A stretch of DNA of 64,000 nt, from the NCBI GenBank assembly GCA_963575745.1, contig CAUYUJ010015741.1, positions 45,001 to 109,000 of the forward strand. Reading direction: 5' to 3'. Of this stretch, positions 5,480 to 63,990 are shown in pieces. Position 1 is the stretch's first letter. Every line of letters begins with the position of its first letter. The position numbers and the translations under genes are program-made. Source of the DNA: Prorocentrum cordatum. Lineage: Eukaryota > Sar > Dinophyceae > Prorocentrales > Prorocentraceae. The notes below the pieces were generated by a model. That model saw only the letters and a program-made list of their open reading frames with translations. It did not search any database and was not told the DNA's origin.

Positions 5480-6200
5480 AAACCACATGCGACATATCCT
5501 CCATGGGGCCCTGCGAGCCTCAGGGGGCCCCAGAGAGGTCCAGGAGGCCGCAGGGCGCCCAGGACAGGCCCCAGGGCCCCCCAGGAGATTCCTAGGAGGC
5601 CCCCAGGAGGCCCCTGGAGGCCCTCTATCAGAATGTGTCAAGCTAATACACATCCGGTGTCGATTCGTTGATTTTTCTTGCTCTTGTGCCCCCCCCTCCA
5701 TTTTGAGGGGCCCAAGCGGCCACAGGTTAGATATCCCCCCTGGGGGCCCCAAGAGCCTTCAGGAAACCTCAGGTGGAGTTCAGGAGGCCACAGGAGGCCC
5801 AGGAGGAAGCTCCAGGAGGTCCCCAGGAGGCCCCAGAAGGCACCAGGAGGCCGCAGGACACCCAGGACAGGCCCCAGGGGCCCCAGGAGGCACCAGGAGG
5901 CCGCAGGATTCTCAGGAGGCTCCCAGGAGGTCCCAGGAGGCTGCCTATCAGAACGTGTCAAGTTAATACACATCCGGTGCCGATTCGTTGATTTTTCCTG
6001 CTCTTGTACCCCCCCCCCTCCATTTGGAGAAGCCCAAATGGCCACAGGTTAAATATCCCGGCTGGGAGCCCCAAGAGGCTTCAGGAAGCCCCAGGCGGGG
6101 TCCAGGAGGCCACGTCCTGCGCCCGTCCCGGGCCCCGGGCCCCACCGCGGTCGCCCTGGCCGGGCCCCGGGTTCCGCTCCGGTCCCGGGTCGCGGGCCCC
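5480..6200. repeat. CAGGAGGCC-rich region with two 140-bp direct repeats
   Basis: Degenerate CAGGAGGCCCC repeats fill the region. Two copies of a unique-looking block (5625-5770 and 5944-6085) start with CTATCAGAA and include AATACACATCCGGTG and CGATTCGTTGATTTTTC. They are 319 bp apart and about 90% alike by eye. The stretch 6105-6200 changes to CCCGGG-rich sequence like that at 15265-15700. No gene is visible. Confidence 0.85.
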
Positions 6201-21588: not shown

Positions 21589-21942
21589 GGCGATGACGTC
21601 ACGTTTCGCGCCGGCGGCGTCTGGGAATGCCTAGGCATAACCGAGGGCGGGTAGCAACAGCATGTAGGTGGCGACCTGCATCACAGCGCCTGTGTACACC
21701 ACAGCGACGCGTGCACCGCAGCGCCTGTGCGCCCACGCGCACCACAACAGCCGCGTGCAACACAGCGCTTAGTTTTTGCCACATTGTTTGCGTGCACCAT
21801 AGCGCTGGCGTGCACCACAGCGCCCGCGCACACCACGCCAATCGTGTGCAACACAGCACCAGTGTACACCACAGTGCCCGCGTGCACCGCAGCGCGTGTG
21901 TACACCACGGCGCCTGTATGCACCACAGCTACCGTGTGCAAC
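21589..21942 (+). repeat. Left arm of an inverted array pair
   Basis: Outer end GATGACGTCACGTTTCGCG, CCGGCGGCGTCTGGGAATGC and CTAGGCAT, then AGCATGTAGGTGGCG, then about 270 bp of GTGTACACCACAGCGCC-type units. The right arm at 23520-24046 reads the same on the other strand, in the same order. Confidence 0.88.
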
Positions 21943-22975
21943 ATTATCCCAGTGCGACCCTACCTAGGAGTTGGAGCCCCTAGGAAAACAGCATTAGTAG
22001 TAACAGTAAAGCTAAACTAGCTAAGCTAAAGCTAAGCTAAAACTAAGCTGAAGCTAAGCTGAAGCTAAGCTAAAGCTAAGCTAAAGCTAAGCTAAAGCTA
22101 AGCTAAAGCTAAGCTAAGGCTAAGCTAACACTAACATAAAGCTAAGCTGAAGCTAAGCTAAAGTCAAGCTAAAGCTAAGCTAAAACTGAGCTAAAGCTAA
22201 GCTAAAGCTAAAGCTAAGGCTAAGCTGAAGCTAAGCTAAAGCTAAGCTAACACTAAGCTAAAGCTAAGCTAAAGCTCAGCTGAAGCTAAGCTAAAGCTAA
22301 GCTAGAGTTAAGCCAAGGCTAAGCTAAAGCTAAGCTAAAGTTAAGCTAAAGCTAAGCTGAAGCTAAGCTAAAGCTAAGCTAAAGCTAAGTTAAAGCTAAG
22401 CTAAAGCGAAGCTAAAGGTAAGTTAAAGCTAAGCTAAAACTGAGCTAATTCTAAGCTCAAGCTAAGATGAAGCTAAGCTAAAGCTAAGCTAAAACTAAGC
22501 TAAAGCTAAGCTAAAGCTGAGCTAGAGCTAAGCTAAAGCTAAGCTAACACTAAGCTAAAGCTAAGCTAACACTAAGCTGAAGCTAAGCGAAAGCTAAGCT
22601 AAAGCTAAGCTAAAGCTAAGCTAACACCTAGCTGAAGCTAAGCTAAAGCTAAGCTAAAGCTAAGCTAAGGCTAAGCTAACACTAAGCTAAAGCTAAGCAA
22701 AAGCTAAGCTGAAGCTAAACTAAAGCTAAGCTAAAGCTAAGCTAAGGCTAAGCGAACACTAAGCTGAAGCTAAGCTAAAGCTAAGCTAAAGCTAAGCTAA
22801 AGCTAAAGCTAAAGCTAAAGCTAAAGCTAAGCTAAAGCTAAAGCTAAGGCAAAAGCTCCCAGGGGACTGGGGGAACCGCGGGGCGGGGACTGGGGGAACC
22901 GCCTGGGGCGGTTTCCATTGCCCGGCCCTTTAGTTAACAGAGTAAGAACCCTTCTAGGCAGAGCCTAGGTAGGGA
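21943..22975 (+). mobile_element. GCTAA composite element, copy 1
   Basis: The left module is ATTATCCCAGTGCGACCCTA followed by CCTAGGAGTTGGAGCCCCTA and AGTAGTAACAGTAAAGC (21943-22012). The internal satellite is mostly the 11-mer GCTAAGCTAAA with variants (22013-22850). The right module (22855-22975) has CCAGGGGACTGGGGGAACCG, GGGGCGGGG, TGCCCGGCCC, AGTAAGAACCCTTCTAGGCA and ends GAGCCTAGGTAGGGA. CCCTACCTAGG near the left end is the inverse of CCTAGGTAGGG at the right end. It interrupts the GTGTGCAACACAGC array of the left arm. There is no coding capacity. Confidence 0.85.
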
Positions 22976-23282
22976 CTAACACCATTCTTGTATATAAAAT
23001 GTTTTGGCAGAATCCTTATGACAACATGGGGCGCTTATGATTCCACAAGAAACAAATGTTGGATTAGGATTTGGAGAGGAGTCCGTGTAGAAAAAGGAAC
23101 GCCGCTGGACGAGTCCTCCCGGGTCCCCCCGCATCATCATAACGTTTCCCCTTTGCGACCAGAACGCTCTGTCAGAATTGGCCGCCGGAGGACCACATGA
23201 ATTGATTAAATCGACAATTCTGTGGTGCAAACTGAGACACGCAGGTGCGCTGTAGCGCCGACCCGCACGTCTGGGGGAAGGA
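22976..23282. other. No gene seen
   Basis: AT-richer unique sequence (CTTGTATATAAAATG at 22987) between the GCTAA element and a GGA microsatellite. A minus-strand frame runs through it into the microsatellite, but it has no recognisable domain. Confidence 0.5.
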
Positions 23283-23425
23283 TGAGGGAGGAGGAGGAGG
23301 AGGAGCAAGAGTTGGAGGAGGAGCAGGAAGAGGAGGGGGATGAGGGGGAGGGAGGAGGTGGAGGTGGAGGAGGAGGAGGACAGGGTGAGGAGGAGGAAGA
23401 GGAGGAGGAAGACGGAGGACGGAAA
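23283..23425. repeat. GGA microsatellite
   Basis: GAGGAGGAGGAGGAGCAAGA-type sequence; poly-Glu or poly-Ser/Leu frames here are repeat shadows. Confidence 0.95.
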
Positions 23426-23519
23426 AACATCGCATTCCACTATCAGCAGTTCTCTGGCGTGTTGATCAGCCGCCGGCAGCATATCCTCACTTACGTGCTC
23501 CTTTTACTTGTCCTATCTT

Positions 23520-24046
23520 GTCCTGTGCACGCAGGCGCTGTGACTGTGGTATACACCAGCGTTGCGTTGCACGCGCATGCTGCGGTGTACACAGGCGCTG
23601 TGGTGTGCACAGGCGATGCGGTGCACGCATTGTGGTGTACAAATGCGCTGTGTTGCACGTGGGTGCTTCGGTCTACACATTCGCTGTGGTGTACACAGGC
23701 GCTGCGGTGCACGCGATCACTGTAGTGTTCACAGGCGCCGCATTGCACACAGCTGTTGCGGTGTGCGCAGGTGCTGTGGTGTACACGCGCGTTGTGGTGC
23801 ACGCGGGAAGTGTGGTGTACACAGGCGTTGTGTTGCACATGGTTGCTGCGGTGTGCACATTCGCTGTGGTGTACACAGGCGCCGTGGTGCACGCAGTCAT
23901 TTACACAAGCGCTGCGTTGCACACGGCTGTTGCGGTGTGCGCACGTGCTGTGGTGCAAATCACCACATACATGCTGCTGTTTCTTGTCCCCAGTCATCCC
24001 TAGGCATTCCCGGACGCCGCCGGCGCGGATCGTGACGTCATTTGGG
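23520..24046 (-). repeat. Right arm of the inverted array pair
   Basis: About 420 bp of GGTGTACACAGGCGCTGTGG-type units, then ACATACATGCTGCTG, CCTAGGCATTCCCGGACGCC, GCCGGCGCGGATCGTGACGT and CATTT. Read on the minus strand it matches the left arm at 21589-21942 from its outer end inward. Confidence 0.88.
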
Positions 24047-33964: not shown

Positions 33965-34165
33965 CTTCTGCTTCGGCGGCGAGCCCAGGGGGAAGCGAGA
34001 GGGGGCAAGCCTTCTGAGAAGGCGGCGGGGCTTCTCAGAGGCCCTCGCGTCTTCTGAAAAGTTGTCTGTGTCTTCGGGGAAGGCTCAGAGAACGTCTCAG
34101 AAAGGCCGAGGCCTTCTGAGAAGGCCCGCCCCCTCTCACCTCTCCCCGTTGCTCGCCGCCGAACC
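33965..34165 (+). repeat. Repeat R3 copy 1, directly before a coding exon
   Basis: CCTTCTGAGAAGGCGG, CTTCTGAAAAGTTGTCTGTG, AGGCCTTCTGAGAAGGCCCG and TTGCTCGCCGCC. Copy 2 lies at 59450-59655 in the same order. Both end within 50 bp of a cyclic-nucleotide-binding-like coding block, so they may be related intron ends. Confidence 0.7.
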
Positions 34166-38799: not shown

Positions 38800-38879
38800 G
38801 GCTGCTTTTGAAGTGCGGACTGTGCCGAGTGCCGCTTGAGGGTCGGCGAGCTAGACGGTCTGGTCGTTCTAGGTGGTCG

Positions 38880-39972
38880 GCATGCGTGTCGTCTCCTCCT
38901 TGGCCATGTGTCCCCTTGGTGTCCTTGGCCCGCTGCCGAAGAGTAGCATTATGATTTTTTTTTTCTGCGCGCTGAGTCGCATGCCAGGCCCTCGTACTCT
39001 TGATTCCACTATCTGGAGCAAGGTGGTTTCCATGTGCGCGGCCTGCTGCAGGGTTGTTGCGGCGCGCGCTGCGAGGTCACCCACGAAGGAGGCGTCTGCG
39101 AGGGCTGAGTCGCCGTCGGGTCCTCCGGTTGGCTGGTGCTCCCGCGCGAAAGTAGGTCGTTCGTCGTTGTCCCAGCCGATGTCGCATTGGATGCCCTGTT
39201 CAATCATGTCCGCGGAAGCGGCTGCGGTGATCCTCGCGAACGCGACGTTGAAGGAGAAGTCGGGCATTGGTACACCTGGCCTCGTAACTGCACGTGGTTG
39301 GGCAATGTGTGCCGATCTTCTCGTGGTCGCCCGCAAGTCGGCGTGGGCGTCTCGGAATTGGGCCGAGCGGTGCTTGTCGTCGGTGCCGGTGTCGATGCGC
39401 TGCGTTTCTTGGAGCGCCTGCCCTAATACTGGTTGGAGCACGGGCGGTGCGCCCATGCTGTCCAGCAGTAAGTCGCCCTCTTCACCCGGCAGCTTGCATA
39501 GAAAGTCAATCGCAACAGTGTAGAAGGCGCCAATGAGGTCCAAGAGCAAGAGAATGCCGCATCTTCCTTGGTTATTCATGATGGTGGTGTAGGTGAAGGT
39601 CGAGTGAGTGACGAAATCCGTGCTCCTCTCGGGCCTGGCTCCGCACTGAACATCGCGCAGTAGATCAAGAGTGACTTGTCGTAGCTCGATTATGAGGAAT
39701 CAGTGGTAGTGCTTGGCTATCACACTGATGAGCGCGATCATTCGTCGGTCTTAGAGTTGTCTGCTGCCTGTTGCGCTCTTGGCACATGATGCTTGCCATC
39801 GTCCCTTGTGGGATAGTGGCCCCACAGTAGCGAACTGGCACTTGACGAGCAAGGGGCGGCACAGGCGGGCCATCTCTTCATTGGCCGCGCGGCACATGTC
39901 GTCTGTGATATTGTCAGGTCCGCCATGACGATGTGGTTTGGCGACGTGAAAGCTCGCCCTGAGCTTGGTCAT
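38880..39972 (-). pseudogene. LINE D reverse transcriptase
   Basis: The N-terminal frame (39972-39750) has EEMARLCRPLLVKCQFATVG. The next frame has DVQCGARPERSTDFV, then LLLLDLIGAFYTVAID (motif A), GVPMPDFSFNVAFARI (motif B, G-x-P-x-x-D) and ADASFVGDLA (motif C with Gly in place of the first Asp of the usual pair). GMRLSAQKKKIIMLLFG follows (motif D). The order defines a non-LTR RT. Loss of the motif C Asp and a stop near 39700 mean it is inactive. An A9 tract at 38957 falls inside the frame as QKKKI. Confidence 0.72.
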
Positions 39973-42654: not shown

Positions 42655-42790
42655 GATGCAGTCGGGGCGCTGAAGAAGGAACCGTTTTCGTTGAGGGGGG
42701 GCTCGGTGTTCCTTAATTGTTCCACACCTTGCCCAAGGTTGCCCTCAAGTTTTCGATGGGAAATCGAAGGTTAACTTATGAAAATTAGCC
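42655..42790 (+). repeat. Repeat R4 copy 1
   Basis: GCAGTCGGGGCGCTGAAGAA, GGAACCGTTTTCGTT and TCGGTGTTCCTTAATTGTTC. The same order is at 55455-55600. The end, with CCTCGTTCCTT, is also seen at 47395 and in changed form at 33945. Confidence 0.7.
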
Positions 42791-42819
42791 CGGCGAAGGA
42801 CCCAACCATACTGCAGCCG

Positions 42820-42940
42820 CGAATGCCGCCATTGTGCATGCAATCTTCGCCCGCGCTCCCTATGGGGCCACGAACCGCGCAAGGGGCGCGCCGAAATGCG
42901 TGGCGGGGTGCACCGCGCGAACGCAGACGATCGGTCTGAG
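42820..42940 (+). repeat. Left arm flanking the LINE E fragment
   Basis: Reads CGCTCCCTATGGGGCCACGA, ACCGCGC, GCGCCGAAATGCG and ACGCAGACGATCGG. Its inverse lies at 44045-44165. The CTCCCTATGGGGCCACGAAC core is also the core of the 101-bp satellite at 45380-47285. Confidence 0.85.
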
Positions 42941-43880
42941 CGCGCGTGCCCCCTGTCACCGTTCTTGTTCGCCATGACGATGACAGTCATAATCGAAGAC
43001 GCTGCAGCGCAACTTTCTGAAGAGCACCGCCAATTCTGGGAACGCGGATCCTTGTCAGTGCTGCTGTACGCGGACGACGCGCTTATATTGGGAAGGACCA
43101 AGGAAGGCGTTGAACAGTTGCTTGCGGTTATTCAAAACTCTGGAAGATCGCGCGGCATGGAGCTACACCCAGACAAGTTCCAGCTGCTGCAAGTCAGACG
43201 TCAGAACAATATTCAACACACGCAGGGTAACATCATACTGGCGCGGCAGGACATAATATATTTGGGGGCCTTGATTTCTGGAGCAGGGGATTCGAGCAAC
43301 GAGCTTTCTCGGCGTCTTGGCGCGGCCCGGGCTGACTTCGACAAGCTTTCCAAAGTGTGGCGACATTCCAGTCTTAGCCGGCATCGAAAAATCGAGGTGT
43401 ACAAAGCCGCATATCTGGGCGCGTTGACGTAATTGTCAACTTTGTGGTTGAACGCAGCTGGCCGGAGGCGTTTGGGCGGTTTTCATTGCCGGTGCCTCCG
43501 CGCGATCTGGGGTATCGCGCCAGCTTACATCTCAAGAGTGAGCAACGTCTTAGACAAGACGGGGCAATCCCCTTGTATCAGAGACAGTAGCTCGACAACA
43601 GCTTCTCCTGCTAGGGAAAGCCGCCAGGTCGCCAGAAGGGAGCCCCCTAAGAGAGGCCACCTTATGCCCAGGGTCTTTTCGGCCAGCTTCAGATAGGTGC
43701 GCGAAGAAAGTTGGCAGGCCGCGCGCGGACTGGACGACCCAAGTGCAACGTGTTGCGTGCGCAGCGGCAGGCGGCATTGCCAATCTGACCCCACTCCTGA
43801 GTAGCGAAGCTTCCTGGCGGCAATTTGTCCGCGCAGCGAAGCTGTCAGCATAGCGCGGCGCTGTGCATTTGTATTGTAGA
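42930..43880 (+). pseudogene. LINE E reverse transcriptase C-terminal part
   Basis: An open frame of 178 residues (to 43432) reads CPLSPFLFAMTMTVIIEDAA (motif B tail), SVLLYADDALILGRTKEG (motif C with intact YADD, codons 43067-43078), GMELHPDKFQLLQV (motif D) and IIYLGALISGAG (motif E). ELSRRLGAARADFDKLSKVW is the thumb. Next is VYKAAYLGALT, then a stop. Further frames continue LNAAGRRRLGGFHCRCLRAI and the tail to about 43880. This is a non-LTR RT from a different family than LINE D. It lacks the fingers and motif A, so it is a fragment. Confidence 0.78.
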
Positions 43881-44381
43881 ATCAATATAGTTAGTTGCAG
43901 ATTTTCCCATCCAGTGTCCTACGCACCTCCGGGTGCATGACTTCTTGCTCGCTTGCTTGCGAGAGACTGATGAGCACGCAGACTCGTTCACAATCAGACG
44001 CACTCGCGCTCAGGCTCACCCGTTCTCAGTCTCTCGCACCCGGGCCGATCGTCTGTGTTCGCGCAGTGTACTTCGCCGCGCATTTCGGCGCGCCCTTCGC
44101 GCGGTTCGTGGCCCCATAGGGAGCGCGGGCGAAGATTATATGCGCAATGGCGGTGTTCACAGTTGCACAGGGGGCCTTTTTCAGGGTCCCTCCCCGACCA
44201 TACAGAACTGCATACACGGGCACTATTCAACATCATGTAGAGCCAAGGGGCGCTTGCGACGAGGTAGAGGAGGCCGTTCACAACGCCGTCTCACAAGTTC
44301 TGCGAACTGGAATTCGCACCGCGTCGTTGGGAACCAGGCTCCAGACCCGCGCAGGCCAGGAGGCAGCTCCGTTGGAAACAA
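43881..44381. repeat. Right arm flanking LINE E and adjoining unique sequence
   Basis: 44045-44165 is the inverse of 42820-42940 (GTGGCCCCATAGGGAGCGCG then GGCGAAGAT). The rest is unique, with no domain. Confidence 0.75.
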
Positions 44382-45255
44382 ATTATCCCAGAGCGACCCT
44401 ACCTAGGAGTTGGAGCCCCTAGGAGAGCAATATTAGTAGTAACGATAAACGCCGTCCTCCTTCTCCTCATCGTCGCAGTTGTAGCAGTAGAGGTAGTAGT
44501 AGTGTTATGCTATGCTATGCTATCCTGCGCTATGCTATTCTCTGCTATGCTATGCTGGGCTATGCTATGCTAGGCTATGTTATGACATTATTTGCTGCGT
44601 TATGCCATGCTATGGTATGTTATGTAACGCTATGATATGATATGCTATACTATGATATGATGTGTTGTTTTGTGATATGCAATGCTATGATGCGCTGTGT
44701 TATGATAATCAATGCTATGTTATGATATGCGATGCAATGTTACGATATGCTATGCGATGCTATGCAGAACTATGATATGATGTGCGATGATATGCTATGC
44801 TATGCTTGGCGATGCTATGCTATGTTGTGCTCATGCTGCGCTGCGCTATGCTGCGTTAAGCTAAGCTAAAGTAAGCTAAGGTATGCTAAGCTAAGCTAGG
44901 CTAGGCGAAGCTAAGCTAAACTAAGCTAAGCTAAACTAAGCCATGCTAAACTAAGCTAAGCCAAGCTAAGCTCAGCTAAGCTAAGCTAAGATGAGCTAGG
45001 CTACGCTTAGCTAAGCTAGGCTAGGCAAAGCTAAGCTAAGCTAAGCTAAGATGAGATAAGCTAAGCTAAGCTAAGCTAAGCCAAGCTAAGCTTAGCTAAG
45101 CTAAGCTAAGCTAAGCTAAGCTGGGTGAACCCAGGGGGCGGGGGCTGGGGGAACCGCGGGGCGGGGACTGGGGGAACCGCCCGGGGCGCTTTACACTGCC
45201 CGGCCCCTTTATGCTAAGAGAGTAAGAACCCTTCTAGGCAGAGCCTGGGTAGGGA
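44382..45255 (+). mobile_element. GCTAA composite element, copy 2
   Basis: The left module ATTATCCCAGAGCGACCCTA to GTAGTAACGATAAACG (44382-44451) and a CCTCCTTCTCCTC linker are followed by a (TATGC)n array (about 44505-44850). This turns into (TAAGC)n (44850-45122). The right module (45123-45255) contains GGGGGAACCGCGGGGCGGGG, AGTAAGAACCCTTCTAGGCA and GCCTGGGTAGGGA. The interior differs from copies 1, 3 and 4 while both ends are conserved. Confidence 0.82.
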
Positions 45256-45379: not shown

Positions 45380-47285
45380 CTTCGGTGGAGCTCGATGTGG
45401 GGCCAGGGGCCACGAATCGCGTGAGGAATGAGGGGTGCGCCGAAATGAATGGTGGGGAGGCATGCGGACGCAGCCACAGGCGCCTTCGGCGATGCTCCCT
45501 GTGGGGCCACGAAGCGTGTGAGGGGCGTGCCGAAATGGGCGCGGGGGCGGCATGCGGACGCTGCCACTGGGGCCTTCGGTGGAGCTCCCTATGGGGCCGC
45601 GAAGCGTGTGAGGGGTGTGCCGAAATGGGCGCGGGGGCGGCATGCGGGCGCAGCCACTGGGGCATTCGGTGGAGCTCCTTATGGGGCCACGAACCGTGTG
45701 AGGGGTGTGCCTAAATGGGCACGCGGTGGGCGGGGAGGACGCATGCGAACTGTGCCGCTGGGGCCTTCGGTGGCGCTCCCCATGGGGCCGCGAACCGTGT
45801 GATGGGGTGTGCCGAAATGGGCATGCGGTGGACGGGGAGGACGCACGCGAACTGTGCCACTGGGGCCTTCGGTTGAGCTCCCTATGGGGCCACGAACCGC
45901 GTGAAGGGCTGCGCCGAAATGGGCATGCGGTGGGCGGGGAGGACGCATGCGAACTGTGCCACTGGGGCCTTCGGTGGCGCTCCCTATGGGGCCACGAACC
46001 GCGTGAGCCGTGGGCGGGGAGGACGCATGCGAACTGTGCCACTGGGGCCTTCGGTGGAGCTCCCTATGGGGCCACGAACCGTGTGAAGGGTGCGCCGAAA
46101 TGGGCCTGCGGTGGGCGGGGAGGACGCATGCGAACTGTACCACCGGGGCCTTCGGTTGAGCTCGAATTGTGCCACGGGGCCATTCGGTGGAGGACGCATG
46201 CGAACTGTGCCGCTGGGGCCTTCGGTGGCGCTCCCCATGGGGCCGCGAACCGTGTGATGGGGTGTGCCGAAATGGGCATGCGGTGGACGGGGAGGACGCA
46301 CGCGAACTGTGCCACTGGGGCCTTCGGTTGAGCTCCCTATGGGGCCACGAACCGCGTGAAGGGCTGCGCCGAAATGGGCATGCGGTGGGCGGGGAGGACG
46401 CTTGCGAACTGTGCCACTGGGGCCTTTGGTGGAGCTCCCTATGGGGCCACGAGCCGCCTGAGGGGTGTAACAAAATGGGCCTGCGGCGGGCGGGGAGGAC
46501 GCACGCGGACAGTGCCACTGGGGCCTTCGGTGGAGCTCCCTATGGGGCCACGAGCCGTGTGAGGGGTGTGCCAAAATGGGCCTGCGGTGGGCGGGGAGGA
46601 CGCATGCGAATTGTGCCACTGGGGCTTTAGTATGGGGCCACGAACCGTGTGAGAGGTGTACCAAAATGGGCCTGCGGTGGGCGGGGAGGACGCATGCGAA
46701 TTGTGCCACTGGGGCCTTCGGTGGAGCTCCCTATGGGGCCACGAACCGCGTGAGGGGTGTGCCAAAATGGGCCTGCGGTGGGCGGGGAGGACGCATGCGA
46801 ACTGTGCCACGGGGGCCTTCGGTGGAGCCCCCATATGGGGCCACGAACCGTGTGAGGGGTGTGCCAAAATGGGCCTGCGGTGGGCGGGGGGGACGCATGC
46901 GAATTGTGCCGCTGGGGCCTTCGGTGGAGCTCCCTATGGGGCCACGAACCGTGTGCGGGTTGTGCCAGCTTGGGCCTGCGGTGGGCGGGGAGGACGCATG
47001 CGAATTGTGCTACTGGGGCCTTCGGTGGAGCTCCCTATGGGGCCACGAGCCGTGTGAGGGGTGTGCCAAAATGGGCCTGCGGTGGGCGGGGAGGACGCAT
47101 GCGAATTGTGCCATTGGGGCCTTCGGTGGAGCTCCCTATGGGGCCACGAACCGTGTGAGTGGTGTGCCAAAATGGGCCTGCGATGGGCAGGGAGGGCGCA
47201 TGCGAACTGTGCCACTGGGGCCTTCGATGGAGCTCCCTATGGAGCCACGAACCGTGTGAGGGGTGTGCCAAAATGGGCCTGCGGG
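45380..47285. repeat. 101-bp tandem satellite, about 19 units
   Basis: The anchor ATGGGGCCACGAACCG recurs at 46441, 46542, 46632 (a short unit), 46733, 46835, 46936, 47037, 47138 and 47239, so the period is 101 bp. The first units (45501, 45591, 45681) are 90 bp. Each has GCCTTCGGTGGAGCTCCCTA, CCAAAATGGGC and GGGGAGGACGCATGCGAA. All frames are open because the unit has no stops; none is credible as protein. Confidence 0.96.
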
Positions 47286-48068: not shown

Positions 48069-48668
48069 ATTATCCCAGTGCGACCCTACCTAGGAGTTGG
48101 AGCCCCTAGGAAAGCAGCATTGGTAGTAACAGTAAAGCTAAGCTAAGCTACAGCTAAGCTAAAGCTAAGCTAAAGCTAAGCTAAAGCTAAGCTAAAGCTG
48201 AGCTAAAGCTGAGCTACAGCTGAGCTAAATCTAAGCTAAAGCTAAGCTAAAGCTAAAGCTAAAGCTAAAACTAAGCTGAAGCTACGCTAAAGCTAAGCTA
48301 AAGCTAAGCTAAAGCTAAGCTAAAGCTAAGCTAACGCTAAGCTGAAGCTAAGCTAAAGCTAAGCCAACGCTAAACTAAAGCTAAGCTAAAACTAGCTAAA
48401 GCTAAGCTAAAGCTAGGCTAAAGCTAGGCTAAAGCTAAGCTAAAGCTAAGCTAAAGCTAAGCTAAAGCTAAGCTAAAGTTAAAGCTAAGCTAAAGCTAAG
48501 CTAAAGTTAAGCTAAAGCTAAGCTAAAGCTAAAGCTAAAGCTAAAGCTCCCAGGGGACTGGGGGAACCGCGGGGCGGGGACTGGGGGAACCGCCCGGGGC
48601 GATTTACACTGCCCGGCCCCTTTAAGCTAAGAGAGTAAGAACCCTTCTAGGCAGAGCCTGGGTAGGGA
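48069..48668 (+). mobile_element. GCTAA composite element, copy 3
   Basis: The left module ATTATCCCAGTGCGACCCTA to GGTAGTAACAGTAAAGC, the 11-mer GCTAAGCTAAA satellite (48138-48545) and the right module from CTCCCAGGGGACTGGGGGAA to GCCTGGGTAGGGA. It lies at one edge of the block inserted in LINE D; LINE D sequence resumes directly after it. Confidence 0.85.
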
Positions 48669-58677: not shown

Positions 58678-59216
58678 TCCCTACCTAGGCTCTGCCTAGA
58701 AGAGTTCTTACTCTCTAGCTTAAAGGGGCCGGGCAGTGGAAAGCGCCCCGGGCGGTTCCCCCAGTCCCCTGGGAGCGGTTCCCCCCAGTCCCTGGGAGCT
58801 TTAGCTTTAGCTTTAGCTTTAGCTTAGCTTTAGCTTAGCTATAGCTTAGTAGCTTAGCTTTAGCTTAGCTTAGCGTTTCGCTTAGAGCAGCTTGAGCTTG
58901 AGCTTAGCTTGAGCTTAGCTTGAGCTTAGCTTTAGCTTAGCTTTAGCTTAGCTTTAGCTTAGCTTTAGCTTAGCTGTAGCTTAGCTTTAGCTTAGCTGTT
59001 GATCAGCTTTAGCTTAGCTTTAGCTTAGCTTTAGCTTAGCTTTAGCTTAGCTTTAGCTTAGCTTTAGCTTAACTTTAGCTTAGCTGTGGCTTAGCTTTAG
59101 CTTAGCTTTAGCTTAGCTTTAGCTTAGCTTTAGCTTAGCGTTACTGTTGCTACTAATGCTGCTTTCCTAGGAGTTCCAACTCCTAGGTAGGGTCGCACTG
59201 GCAGCACTGGGATAAT
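58678..59216 (-). mobile_element. GCTAA composite element, copy 4
   Basis: Opposite orientation. The right module comes first (TCCCTACCTAGGCTCTGCCT, AGAGTTCTTACTCT, GGGCCGGGCAGTG, two GGTTCCCCCAGTCCC), then (AGCTTAGCTTT)n at 58798-59140. The left module, CTACTAATGCTGCTTTCCTA then GGTAGGGTCGCACTG, ends at GGGATAAT with an 11-bp insertion (GGCAGCACT region). Confidence 0.83.
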
Positions 59217-59449
59217 GTTAATAACAACGGCGAGTTCGTGCATCAATTTATTCATACATTAATCATGCATTAAGCATCCTATACTTTTCAAAATCCTATA
59301 GATTAAAAACTGCCCTGTAGGGTCGGCGTCGGATCGTCCTCCCTGGGCGCGAAGCGCGCAAGGGGCGGCGCCTGAGGTGTGATCAGGGGGGCCAGCGCCG
59401 ATCCCCAGAAATCAGCGCGGAGCTCCGACCGTTTTTACGTTTTGGTGCT
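59217..59449. other. No gene seen
   Basis: AT-rich patch (TTTATTCATACATTAATCAT at 59248) followed by GC-rich unique sequence. Confidence 0.5.
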
Positions 59450-59655
59450 CGGCGGCGAGCGAGGGGGGGCAATGAGAAGGAGAAGGCCTTCTCAGAAGGC
59501 GGTGGGACTGCTCCGAAACGCGCGCGCGCCTCCTGAGAAGTGTTTTCCTGTCTTGGGGGGAGGTCAAGAAAACCTTGCAGAAGGCCGGGAAACTTCCGAG
59601 CCTTCTGAGAAGGCCCGCCCCGTCTCACTCCCCCCCGTGCTCGCCGCCGGTATGC
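59450..59655 (+). repeat. Repeat R3 copy 2
   Basis: GCGAGCGAGGGGGGGC, AAGGCCTTCTCAGAAGGCGG, GAGAAGTGTTTTCCTGTCTT, GAGCCTTCTGAGAAGGCCCG and GTGCTCGCCGCCGG. See 33965-34165. Confidence 0.7.
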
Positions 59656-61625: not shown

Positions 61626-61682
61626 AAGTCGGGCATGTCCCTCTACAGGAGGAGCATTCAATGATACCAGAGAAAACACCCA

Positions 61683-62105
61683 ATCATAATCTATGTTAGG
61701 GCTATAGGGCCATGAGGCTATAGGGCTAGAAGGCTATAGGGCTAGAAGGCTATAGGACTATATGGGCGATAGGGCTATAGAGCTATAGGGCTAAAGGGCT
61801 ATAGGGCTATAGAGCTATGGGGGTTTGGGGCTGTAGGGCTATAGGGCTATAGGGCTATAAGGCTATAGAGCTATGGGGCTATAGGGCTATAGGGCTATTG
61901 GGCTATCGGGCTATAGGGCTATAGGGCTATAGGGCTATAGGGCTATAGAGCACCAGGGCACCCCGTCACCCGGGCACCCCCGGGGAACCTCCAGGACCTG
62001 GACACTTCCGGGCACCCCCGGGCACCCGGGCAACCCCGGGCACCCCCGGGCACCCCCGGGCACCCCCGGGCACCCGGGCACCCGGGCACCCGGGCTGGCC
62101 ACCGA
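61683..62105. repeat. GGGCTATA satellite and CCCGGGCAC block 1
   Basis: CTATAGGGCTATAGGGCTAT to about 61950, then CACCCCCGGGCACCCGGGCA to 62095. Confidence 0.96.
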
Positions 62106-62159
62106 AATCGGCGACCCACCTCACCTAACCATCTGATACGGGAGAAAGGCCCCAATCAT

Positions 62160-62512
62160 ATTTTTGAGGAATATAGGGCTATGGGGCTATAGGGCTATAG
62201 GGCTACAAGTTTATAGGGCTATAAGGCTATATGGGGTATAGGGCTATTAGGGCTATAGGGCTATGGGGCTATAGGGCTATCGGGCTATAGGGCTATGGGG
62301 CGGCTATAGGGCTATCGGGCTATAGGGCTATAGAGCTATAGGACTAGAGGGCTATAGGGCTAGAGGGCCATGTAGGGCTACCGGCTGCCGTGTACCCGGG
62401 CACCTGGGCACCCCCGGGCACCCCCGGGCACCCCCGGGCACCCCCGGGCACCCCCGGGCACCAGGGCACCCCCGGGGCACCCGGACACCCGGGCACCTGG
62501 GCCCGCCGACAC
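62160..62512. repeat. GGGCTATA satellite and CCCGGGCAC block 2
   Basis: The same two repeat types in the same order, so the pair is a larger duplication of about 460 bp. Confidence 0.95.
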
Positions 62513-62891
62513 AATTCATTGTCGATTCCAAAGAAAATGTGGGAAAATATGGGATTGGGGAGGAAGACAAAAACCCAGAAAAATATGGGAAAATATGGAA
62601 CATCTTTTTCTTTGTGTGTATTTACTTGTGTGGTTTACTTGTGTGGTCCATGGCCCCTTCACATATGAATCCGCAAGGACCCCTAAACTCTGATTGGGGA
62701 GTGAATCCGCTTGGACCCCTACAGAGGCAAGCTCTGATTGGGGAAGATAGTCAAGAGATAGTCTGGGGGCGATGTTTCCATTATTGCTTGACTGTTCTAG
62801 AATATCTGTTTTGAGTATTTTTGTTTTTCGTATCAAAGCCGCCTGTAGAGGGACATGCCCGACCGAACCCTATTCCTATGCTTGGCTTTCT

Positions 62892-63116
62892 AGGCCTCCC
62901 AGATGGGGTCGGAGTAGATGGGGTCGGAGGATCGCGCCGCATCGCCGATGCGGCGCGATGTGGGGCCCGATTTGCTTTACGTCGACGTCGCCGATGCATC
63001 GCCGACGTCGACAATGCATCGCCAGTGCATCACCGATGCATCGCCGATACATCGCCGATGTATCGGCGATGCAGCGCGATCCTCCGACCCCATCTACTCC
63101 GACCCCATCTAAGAGG
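62892..63116. mobile_element. Fold-back element, 46-bp arms
   Basis: The left arm AGATGGGGTCGGAGTAGATG then GGGTCGGAGGATCGCGC pairs with the right arm GCGCGATCCTCCGACCCCAT then CTACTCCGACCCCATCT. The interior is CATCGCCGATG-type palindromic repeats. AGGCCTCCCAG and TAAGAGGCCT extend the pairing outward. Confidence 0.9.
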
Positions 63117-63289
63117 CCTCTGGACATGACCTTACCTCGGTGCCAATCTTAGGGATTCCGTCTCTTTCTGAGGGCACATCCCCAAGATTGTCATCGCCTC
63201 TCCCTTGCCTATCTCAAGGGTAATTAGGAATAAGTTCGAGGCTAGTCAAAGGAGGAGAAGGTACCAATACAGCTAGCAGCTACCAGGGC

Positions 63290-63875: not shown

Positions 63876-63990
63876 TGGGGGGAATAGGCTCGGGGGGATG
63901 CATCGACCCCCCATCGCCCATGGATCGCGACAGGGGCTTGACAGCTCCATTCAGCCGAGGAGGGTGTGGATCTGCTACCCAGGGCCTATC
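63876..63990 (+). repeat. Repeat R6 copy 2
   Basis: GATGCATCGACCCCCCATCG, CCATGGATCGCGAC and GATCTGCTACCCAGGGCCTA. Confidence 0.78.

Follow-up and report, generated by a model that had tools for sequence, protein, structure and literature searches.

In a 64,000-nucleotide stretch of Prorocentrum cordatum DNA (here, the window), four sequences share conserved ends and differ in the short tandem repeats that lie between them. This raises the question of whether the four are insertions of a mobile element, and of how their internal arrays came to differ. The origin of new satellite DNA is a long-standing open question, and related but different arrays between near-identical ends could make the history of an array reconstructable once the genome can be searched. 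We consider the four copies to be insertions of one non-autonomous, non-coding DNA element whose array has changed in place, and give this reading a probability of about 0.7.

Four paired copies and their flanks

An earlier note on this DNA had described four copies with conserved left and right modules, and their positions were confirmed (Table 1). BLAST searches against the window returned four left and four right modules, all paired and in constant relative orientation, with no solo module; the possibility, raised in that note, that the modules occur mostly apart does not hold within the window. The further matches were either weak and at most 30 bp long (E ≥ 0.3) or were due to inner repeats of the right module and to fragments of adjacent arrays that the query flanks included. 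A masked self-comparison of the window also gave a family of four. The left module could be aligned over 67 bp and the right module over about 75-120 bp in the four copies, with core identities of 85-97% on the left (c3 being compared over 62 columns only) and 89-97% on the right. The left end of c4 carries a 9-bp, duplication-like insertion. The enclosed arrays measure 343-841 bp, in line with the 340-840 bp reported before. The sample for all of these comparisons is four copies in a single 64-kb window.

Table 1. Coordinates of the four copies and of their parts; copy lengths were taken between the ends ATTATCCC (left) and TAGGGA (right).
Feature	Position	Strand	Remarks
Copy c1	21943..22975	+	1033 bp; ends set at ATTATCCC and TAGGGA
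Copy c2	44382..45255	+	874 bp; pentamer array
Copy c3	48069..48668	+	600 bp
Copy c4	58678..59216	-	539 bp; inverted
c1 array	22007..22847	+	11-mer GCTAAGCTAAA; TRF
c2 array	44506..45122	+	5-mer; TRF
c3 array	48135..48544	+	11-mer; TRF
c4 array	58801..59143	-	11-mer; TRF
c1 left subterminal inverted repeat	21958..21968	+	CCCTACCTAGG
c1 right inverted repeat	22964..22974	+	CCTAGGTAGGG; 1 bp from end
c1 left palindrome	21963..21984	+	CCTAGG...CCTAGG
c1 right hairpin	22954..22968	+	CTAGGC-AGA-GCCTAG; predicted in 4/4 copies
c1 G-rich part of right module	22862..22911	+	23-bp unit, about two times
c2 right-module word	45208..45220	+	TTTATGCTAAGAG

The surroundings of the copies are unrelated. Across the six pairs of copies, ungapped identity over 100-bp flanks was 20-25% on the left and 19-33% on the right. 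The copies are therefore not one duplicated block, and segmental duplication, which the earlier note would have accepted had the flanks been the same in all copies, is rejected on this flank identity. The right boundary is not quite sharp: over the 20 bp next to it, identity between flanks rises to 45% in one pair (c1/c3). On the left the boundary may be off by 2-3 bases, with AAC standing before ATTATCCC in three copies; in c1 this AAC also fits the adjoining 18-mer array. That array forms the left arm of an inverted structure of larger size (21593-24041). A dispersed 113-bp repeat, with a second copy at 63878-63987 (81%), is 12 bp away from c4.

Over the first four bases of the right flanks, 14 of 16 positions are A or T, against an A/T share of 39.5% in the window (P = 0.0002 when four places are taken at random); over the first six bases the count is 18 of 24 (P = 0.0007) and over the first eight 20 of 32. 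Two candidate target duplications, AACA/AACA and AAAC/AAAC, were rejected as no longer than the matches found in mismatched flank pairs: matched left and right flanks share 4-5 nt (n = 4) and mismatched pairs 3-6 nt (n = 12), and hence there is no evidence for target duplication. When 60 + 60 bp of joined flanks were searched for each copy, only the copy's own two flanks matched well, and no empty site was found in the window. In the same search the left flank of c1 also matched other 18-mer units, and the right flank of c4 matched the dispersed repeat, which stops 12 bp before the junction.

The longest stop-to-stop stretch within any copy is 70 aa. Short open reading frames of this kind, together with conserved asymmetric ends and dispersed paired modules, argue for a non-autonomous element, and from this pattern we infer mobility. 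The proposal of a non-autonomous DNA element thus keeps its dispersed composite family with conserved ends and unrelated flanks, but receives neither a target duplication nor an empty site from the window. The conserved ends may serve as recognition sites for an enzyme supplied in trans. The window contains 250 stop-to-stop segments of at least 120 aa, repetitive ones omitted; among the 127 that were scanned, no transposase or Rep/helicase family was matched at E 0.01. An Rfam scan at the gathering cut-off and a tRNA scan returned nothing.

Structure of the ends and mode of movement

The 11-bp sequence CCCTACCTAGG starts 15 bp inside the conserved left end, and its inverse ends 1 bp inside the right end. 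On either strand it is exact at six of the eight ends and has a single change at the other two; all six of its exact occurrences in the window fall within these elements, where 0.04 would be expected from base composition. Since the outermost 15 bp of the left end, beyond the repeat, are conserved in 4/4 copies, the inverted repeat is not terminal on that side. Of the terminal inverted repeats suggested earlier, an inverted pair near both ends remains, with a left member that is subterminal. At both ends the repeats are nested in predicted hairpins in all four copies. The left hairpins are predicted to be weak in c1 and c2 (about -4 kcal/mol, vs -12 in c4, where the palindrome arms are longer, CCTAGGAGTT/AACTCCTAGG), and in the right hairpin of c2 and c3 an A->G change leaves a G-T pair.

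Rolling-circle movement of the Helentron type appears to be the most likely mode, and we favour it tentatively because of the subterminal inverted repeats with nested hairpins, the asymmetric ends, the A/T-rich flanks and the lack of a visible target duplication. The earlier note knew of no named family like this. For the design, this does not stand: HINE/DINE-1 (PMC4067079), Cg_HINE (PMC7492417) and Tetris (PMC4079207) are all non-autonomous elements that carry satellite arrays. The design is already known and the present element looks like another family of it, with an architecture closest to the Helentron-associated HINE elements (DINE-1, Cg_HINE) except at one end.

Cg_HINE elements, non-autonomous Helentrons of the Pacific oyster, have conserved flanks on either side of a central satellite array whose orientation is constant, and related flanks may enclose different arrays, both as in the four copies; some have two consecutive arrays, comparable to the two pentamer blocks of c2, and their sites are T-rich, with target duplication not reported (PMC7492417), to which the A/T-rich right flanks seen here may correspond. 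They differ in their monomers, with consensus lengths of 138-181 bp against 5 and 11 bp here, and in a right flank composed of a subterminal inverted repeat (subTIR) plus a palindrome, whereas here the palindromes are nested within the repeats (PMC7492417). DINE-1 and the HINE elements of mites have central repeats in some copies, as here, and insert into T-rich targets with no target duplication (PMC4067079), which may also be so for the four copies. Their subTIRs measure 13 bp and 12-15 bp, respectively (PMC4067079); taking 12-15 bp in described families, with 11 or more bp identical among the members of a family, as the measure of a HINE subTIR, the 11 bp found here lie at its short limit. 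The DINE-1-type inverted repeat, which has its 5' side nested in the 5' subTIR and its partner about 3-22 bp away (PMC4067079), is present with a spacing of 4 nt on the minus strand as CCTAGG-CTCT-GCCTAG, a hairpin predicted in 4/4 copies with a wobble pair in two.

The 3' end is where the likeness stops. In mite HINE about 38-60 bp separate the 3' subTIR from the 3' end, and a palindrome lies between the two, 8-35 bp from the subTIR (PMC4067079); here the repeat is 15 bp from the end, with its palindrome on the inner side and no stem-loop farther out. Because the subTIRs, the central repeats and the inverted repeat nested in a subTIR match the HINE class but the 3' end deviates, we propose that the element works like a HINE and do not assign it to that class. 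Canonical Helitrons start with 5' TC, end in 3' CTRR preceded by a palindrome at a distance of about 11 bp from that end, and insert between A and T; here the minus strand starts TCCC, the other end is GGGATAAT, and CTRR is absent from all four copies.

Cut-and-paste movement of a MITE-type element by a TIR transposase, with CCCTACCTAGG as the transposase site and the outer left 15 bp as an accessory end, is the main rival, possible but doubtful. It would account for an 11-bp inverted repeat near both ends and has company in the other satellite-bearing inverted-repeat structures of the window, but it has to accommodate a left repeat that is not terminal, 15 conserved bp outside it in every copy, and flanks without target duplication beyond the mismatched-pair control. 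Under a strict TIR rule the repeats would stand at the very termini; they lie 1 bp (right) and 15 bp (left) inside. Among elements with terminal inverted repeats, miDNA4 and the Xmix/Xstir MITEs of Xenopus resemble the copies in that they carry a satellite whose copy number varies, or repeats derived from the element, but their inverted repeats are terminal (PMC9659126, PMC12628747). The Tetris foldback of Drosophila virilis is a further likeness, being non-autonomous and modular, with internal tandem repeats that became satellite arrays; its repeats of about 220 bp, located inside the TIRs, fit the neighbouring structure at 21593-24041 better than the four copies (PMC4079207).

Introner elements of dinoflagellates are similar in that inverted repeats of 8-20 nt stand close to either end, in having no transposase gene and in residing in repeat-rich protist genomes; introners are defined by their location in introns, and those of Amoebophrya have direct repeats of 3-5 nt at their boundaries (PMC7789003, PMC10666404). 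Judged by titles and the beginnings of abstracts, a literature search returned no satellite-carrying element of dinoflagellates; a broader one had no title on dinoflagellates among the 15 of 588 records listed, and the words satellite and Helitron do not occur in the available text of a dinoflagellate genomics review (2024, PMC11453091) or of the Prorocentrum cordatum genome paper (PMC10666404). In the literature examined, elements that carry satellites come from animals and plants, and the units given for oyster (PMC7492417) and fly (PMC4079207) are longer; with units of 5-11 bp and several satellite-bearing inverted-repeat structures in 64 kb, the present host would be a good test case. The patterns of the right and left ends had no match in viral contigs, nor the right end in prokaryote genomes, nor the right module among phage records; these zeros say little, since the collections hold little eukaryotic DNA. 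The family matched none described, within the sequence collections and literature searched.

It is improbable that the copies are loci fixed in place for a functional or structural role, with modules kept alike by selection or gene conversion, or that they are segmental duplications old enough for their flanks to have eroded. The conserved G-rich module, with a G-quadruplex pattern matched in the right modules of c1, c2 and c3 and not in c4, is what such loci might display. The fall in identity from 85-97% within the modules to 19-33% outside is not, nor are the inversion of one copy and the placement of two copies at or near other repeats.

A short retroelement moved by a LINE is the least likely origin, whether SINE-like or a composite like SVA, a LINE-moved retroelement with an internal VNTR to which the array would correspond: reverse transcriptase pieces in the window (42782-43429, plus strand; 38872-39699, minus strand) and the A-rich start of the right flanks speak for it, but neither end has a poly-A or microsatellite tail, target duplication is not above the control, the modules have no similarity elsewhere in the window, reverse transcriptase regions included, and both ends are present in 4/4 copies, while 5' truncation is frequent among copies made by LINEs.

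Internal arrays and the right-module word

The arrays of c1, c3 and c4 consist mostly of alternating GCTAA and GCTAAA (pentamer + hexamer = 11-mer) in constant orientation, and close at the right module with a run of GCTAAA; in c1 a single GCTAA breaks this run and a degenerate unit comes last. In c2 the unit is TATGC and, from about 44826-44866 onwards, TAAGC, with a one-base register shift at the junction. All four arrays can be read as forms of a single pentamer, TAAGC, rather than as unrelated satellites. The unit does change among copies, as had been claimed (the 11-mer in three, TATGC/TAAGC in one), but this reads as variation within a single pentamer lineage and not as a set of different satellites, and for this reason the capture of unrelated satellites is disfavoured. 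Sharing the alternation, the orientation and the closing GCTAAA run, the arrays of c1, c3 and c4 look inherited with the element. The element may also seed satellite DNA elsewhere, as the earlier note suggested; outside the modules, no GCTAA array was found in the window (TRF score ≥ 50).

If the copies are insertions of one element, their common ancestor probably already carried a TAAGC/GCTAA pentamer array, which would have been altered in place through slippage or unequal exchange. The pentamer + hexamer dimer may have arisen within the array in c1, c3 and c4, while in c2 two pentamer variants, TATGC and TAAGC, may have been homogenised. The events that a genome-wide comparison would have to order are pentamer vs pentamer + hexamer and TAAGC vs TATGC.

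The right module itself contains a related word, which reads TTTAAGCTAAGAG in c3 and TTTAAGCTAGAG in c4 and is degraded in c1 (c2 in Table 1). The single-copy right module of c3 thus contains TAAGC-TAAG (that of c4 is similar) and that of c2 TATGC-TAAG, the A->T change being the sole private substitution of c2 across the 73-bp right core. The word and the array agree: c3 and c4, with the word TTTAAGCTA(A)GAG, have arrays built on (T)AAGC, and c2, with TTTATGCTAAG, has TATGC followed by TAAGC, in the same order as in its word. The agreement was noticed post hoc; the chance that one random right-core substitution would yield the c2 word is about 1/219, or about 1/60 when the seven private substitutions of c2 are counted (six left, one right; 140 columns). 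That the element makes its own satellite, with the array founded from or kept in step with the pentamer word of the right module, is a long shot: c1 combines an intact array with a degraded word, and in no copy does the word include the hexamer of the 11-mer. Were it to hold generally, elements of this kind would generate new satellites from a template of their own, and the varied short-unit arrays in several inverted-repeat structures of the window would be accounted for.

Other repeats and coding remnants in the window

Inverted pairs with at least 13 exact bases, 60-2600 apart, number 47 in the window vs 2-7 in eight Markov shuffles, many of the 47 stemming from a few repeated structures. 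Eleven of 17 arrays sit between the arms of inverted pairs, a descriptive count and not a test, the arrays having been hand-picked from 108 TRF rows and the pairs also picked after looking. Besides the four copies, three inverted-repeat structures enclose satellites. The first, 21593-24041, is foldback-like, with outer ends of about 110 bp (TGACGTCACG... with CCTAGG) that are 79% complementary and, inside these, inverted arms of an 18-mer satellite; c1 lies at the inner edge of the left arm. In the second, 61628-62863, a perfect 22-bp inverted repeat, GTCGGGCATGTCCCTCTACAGG, surrounds 8-mer (TAGGGCTA) and 10-mer (CCGGGCACCC) satellites in two blocks each; this repeat had no match in viral contigs. 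The third, 62892-63119, has a 58-bp inverted repeat (95%) that contains tandem AGATGGGGTCGGAGT and encloses an array of the 11-mer TCGCCGATGCA.

A 133-bp inverted pair (85%) is found at 42812-44167 and 45653-47284, and its core is also the monomer of a 102-bp satellite beside c2. The reverse transcriptase match at 42782-43429 (E 1.4e-11) lies in and beside the left arm of 42812-44167. A piece of the dinoflagellate spliced leader, searched with up to 3 mismatches, had six matches in the window, at 3 mismatches, against 1.9 expected; all six fall in the 102-bp satellite and are therefore no evidence. A degenerate LINE occupies 42500-37400 on the minus strand, with a GGGCGT array between its pieces. 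Endonuclease-like and zinc-finger-like pieces were recognised by eye, with no family match, and the reverse transcriptase match at 38872-39699 is weak (E 0.0018, below the curated cut-off); a protein search with this region gave nothing at E 0.001.

The ORF at 34058-35014 matches a cyclic-nucleotide-binding family weakly, with E 0.00016, which misses the curated cut-off, and had no homologue at E 0.001 in a protein search. The best match other than reverse transcriptase among the 127 of 250 segments scanned was to a cyclic-nucleotide-binding domain as well (E 7.6e-14), in a segment that is neither of the two at position 34 kb that were rechecked. A MITE-like hairpin is present in two copies, 33973-34162 and 59449-59649, which are 73% identical, and direct repeats of 157 bp (87%) at 5625-6101 stand on either side of a 10-mer array (5781-5941).
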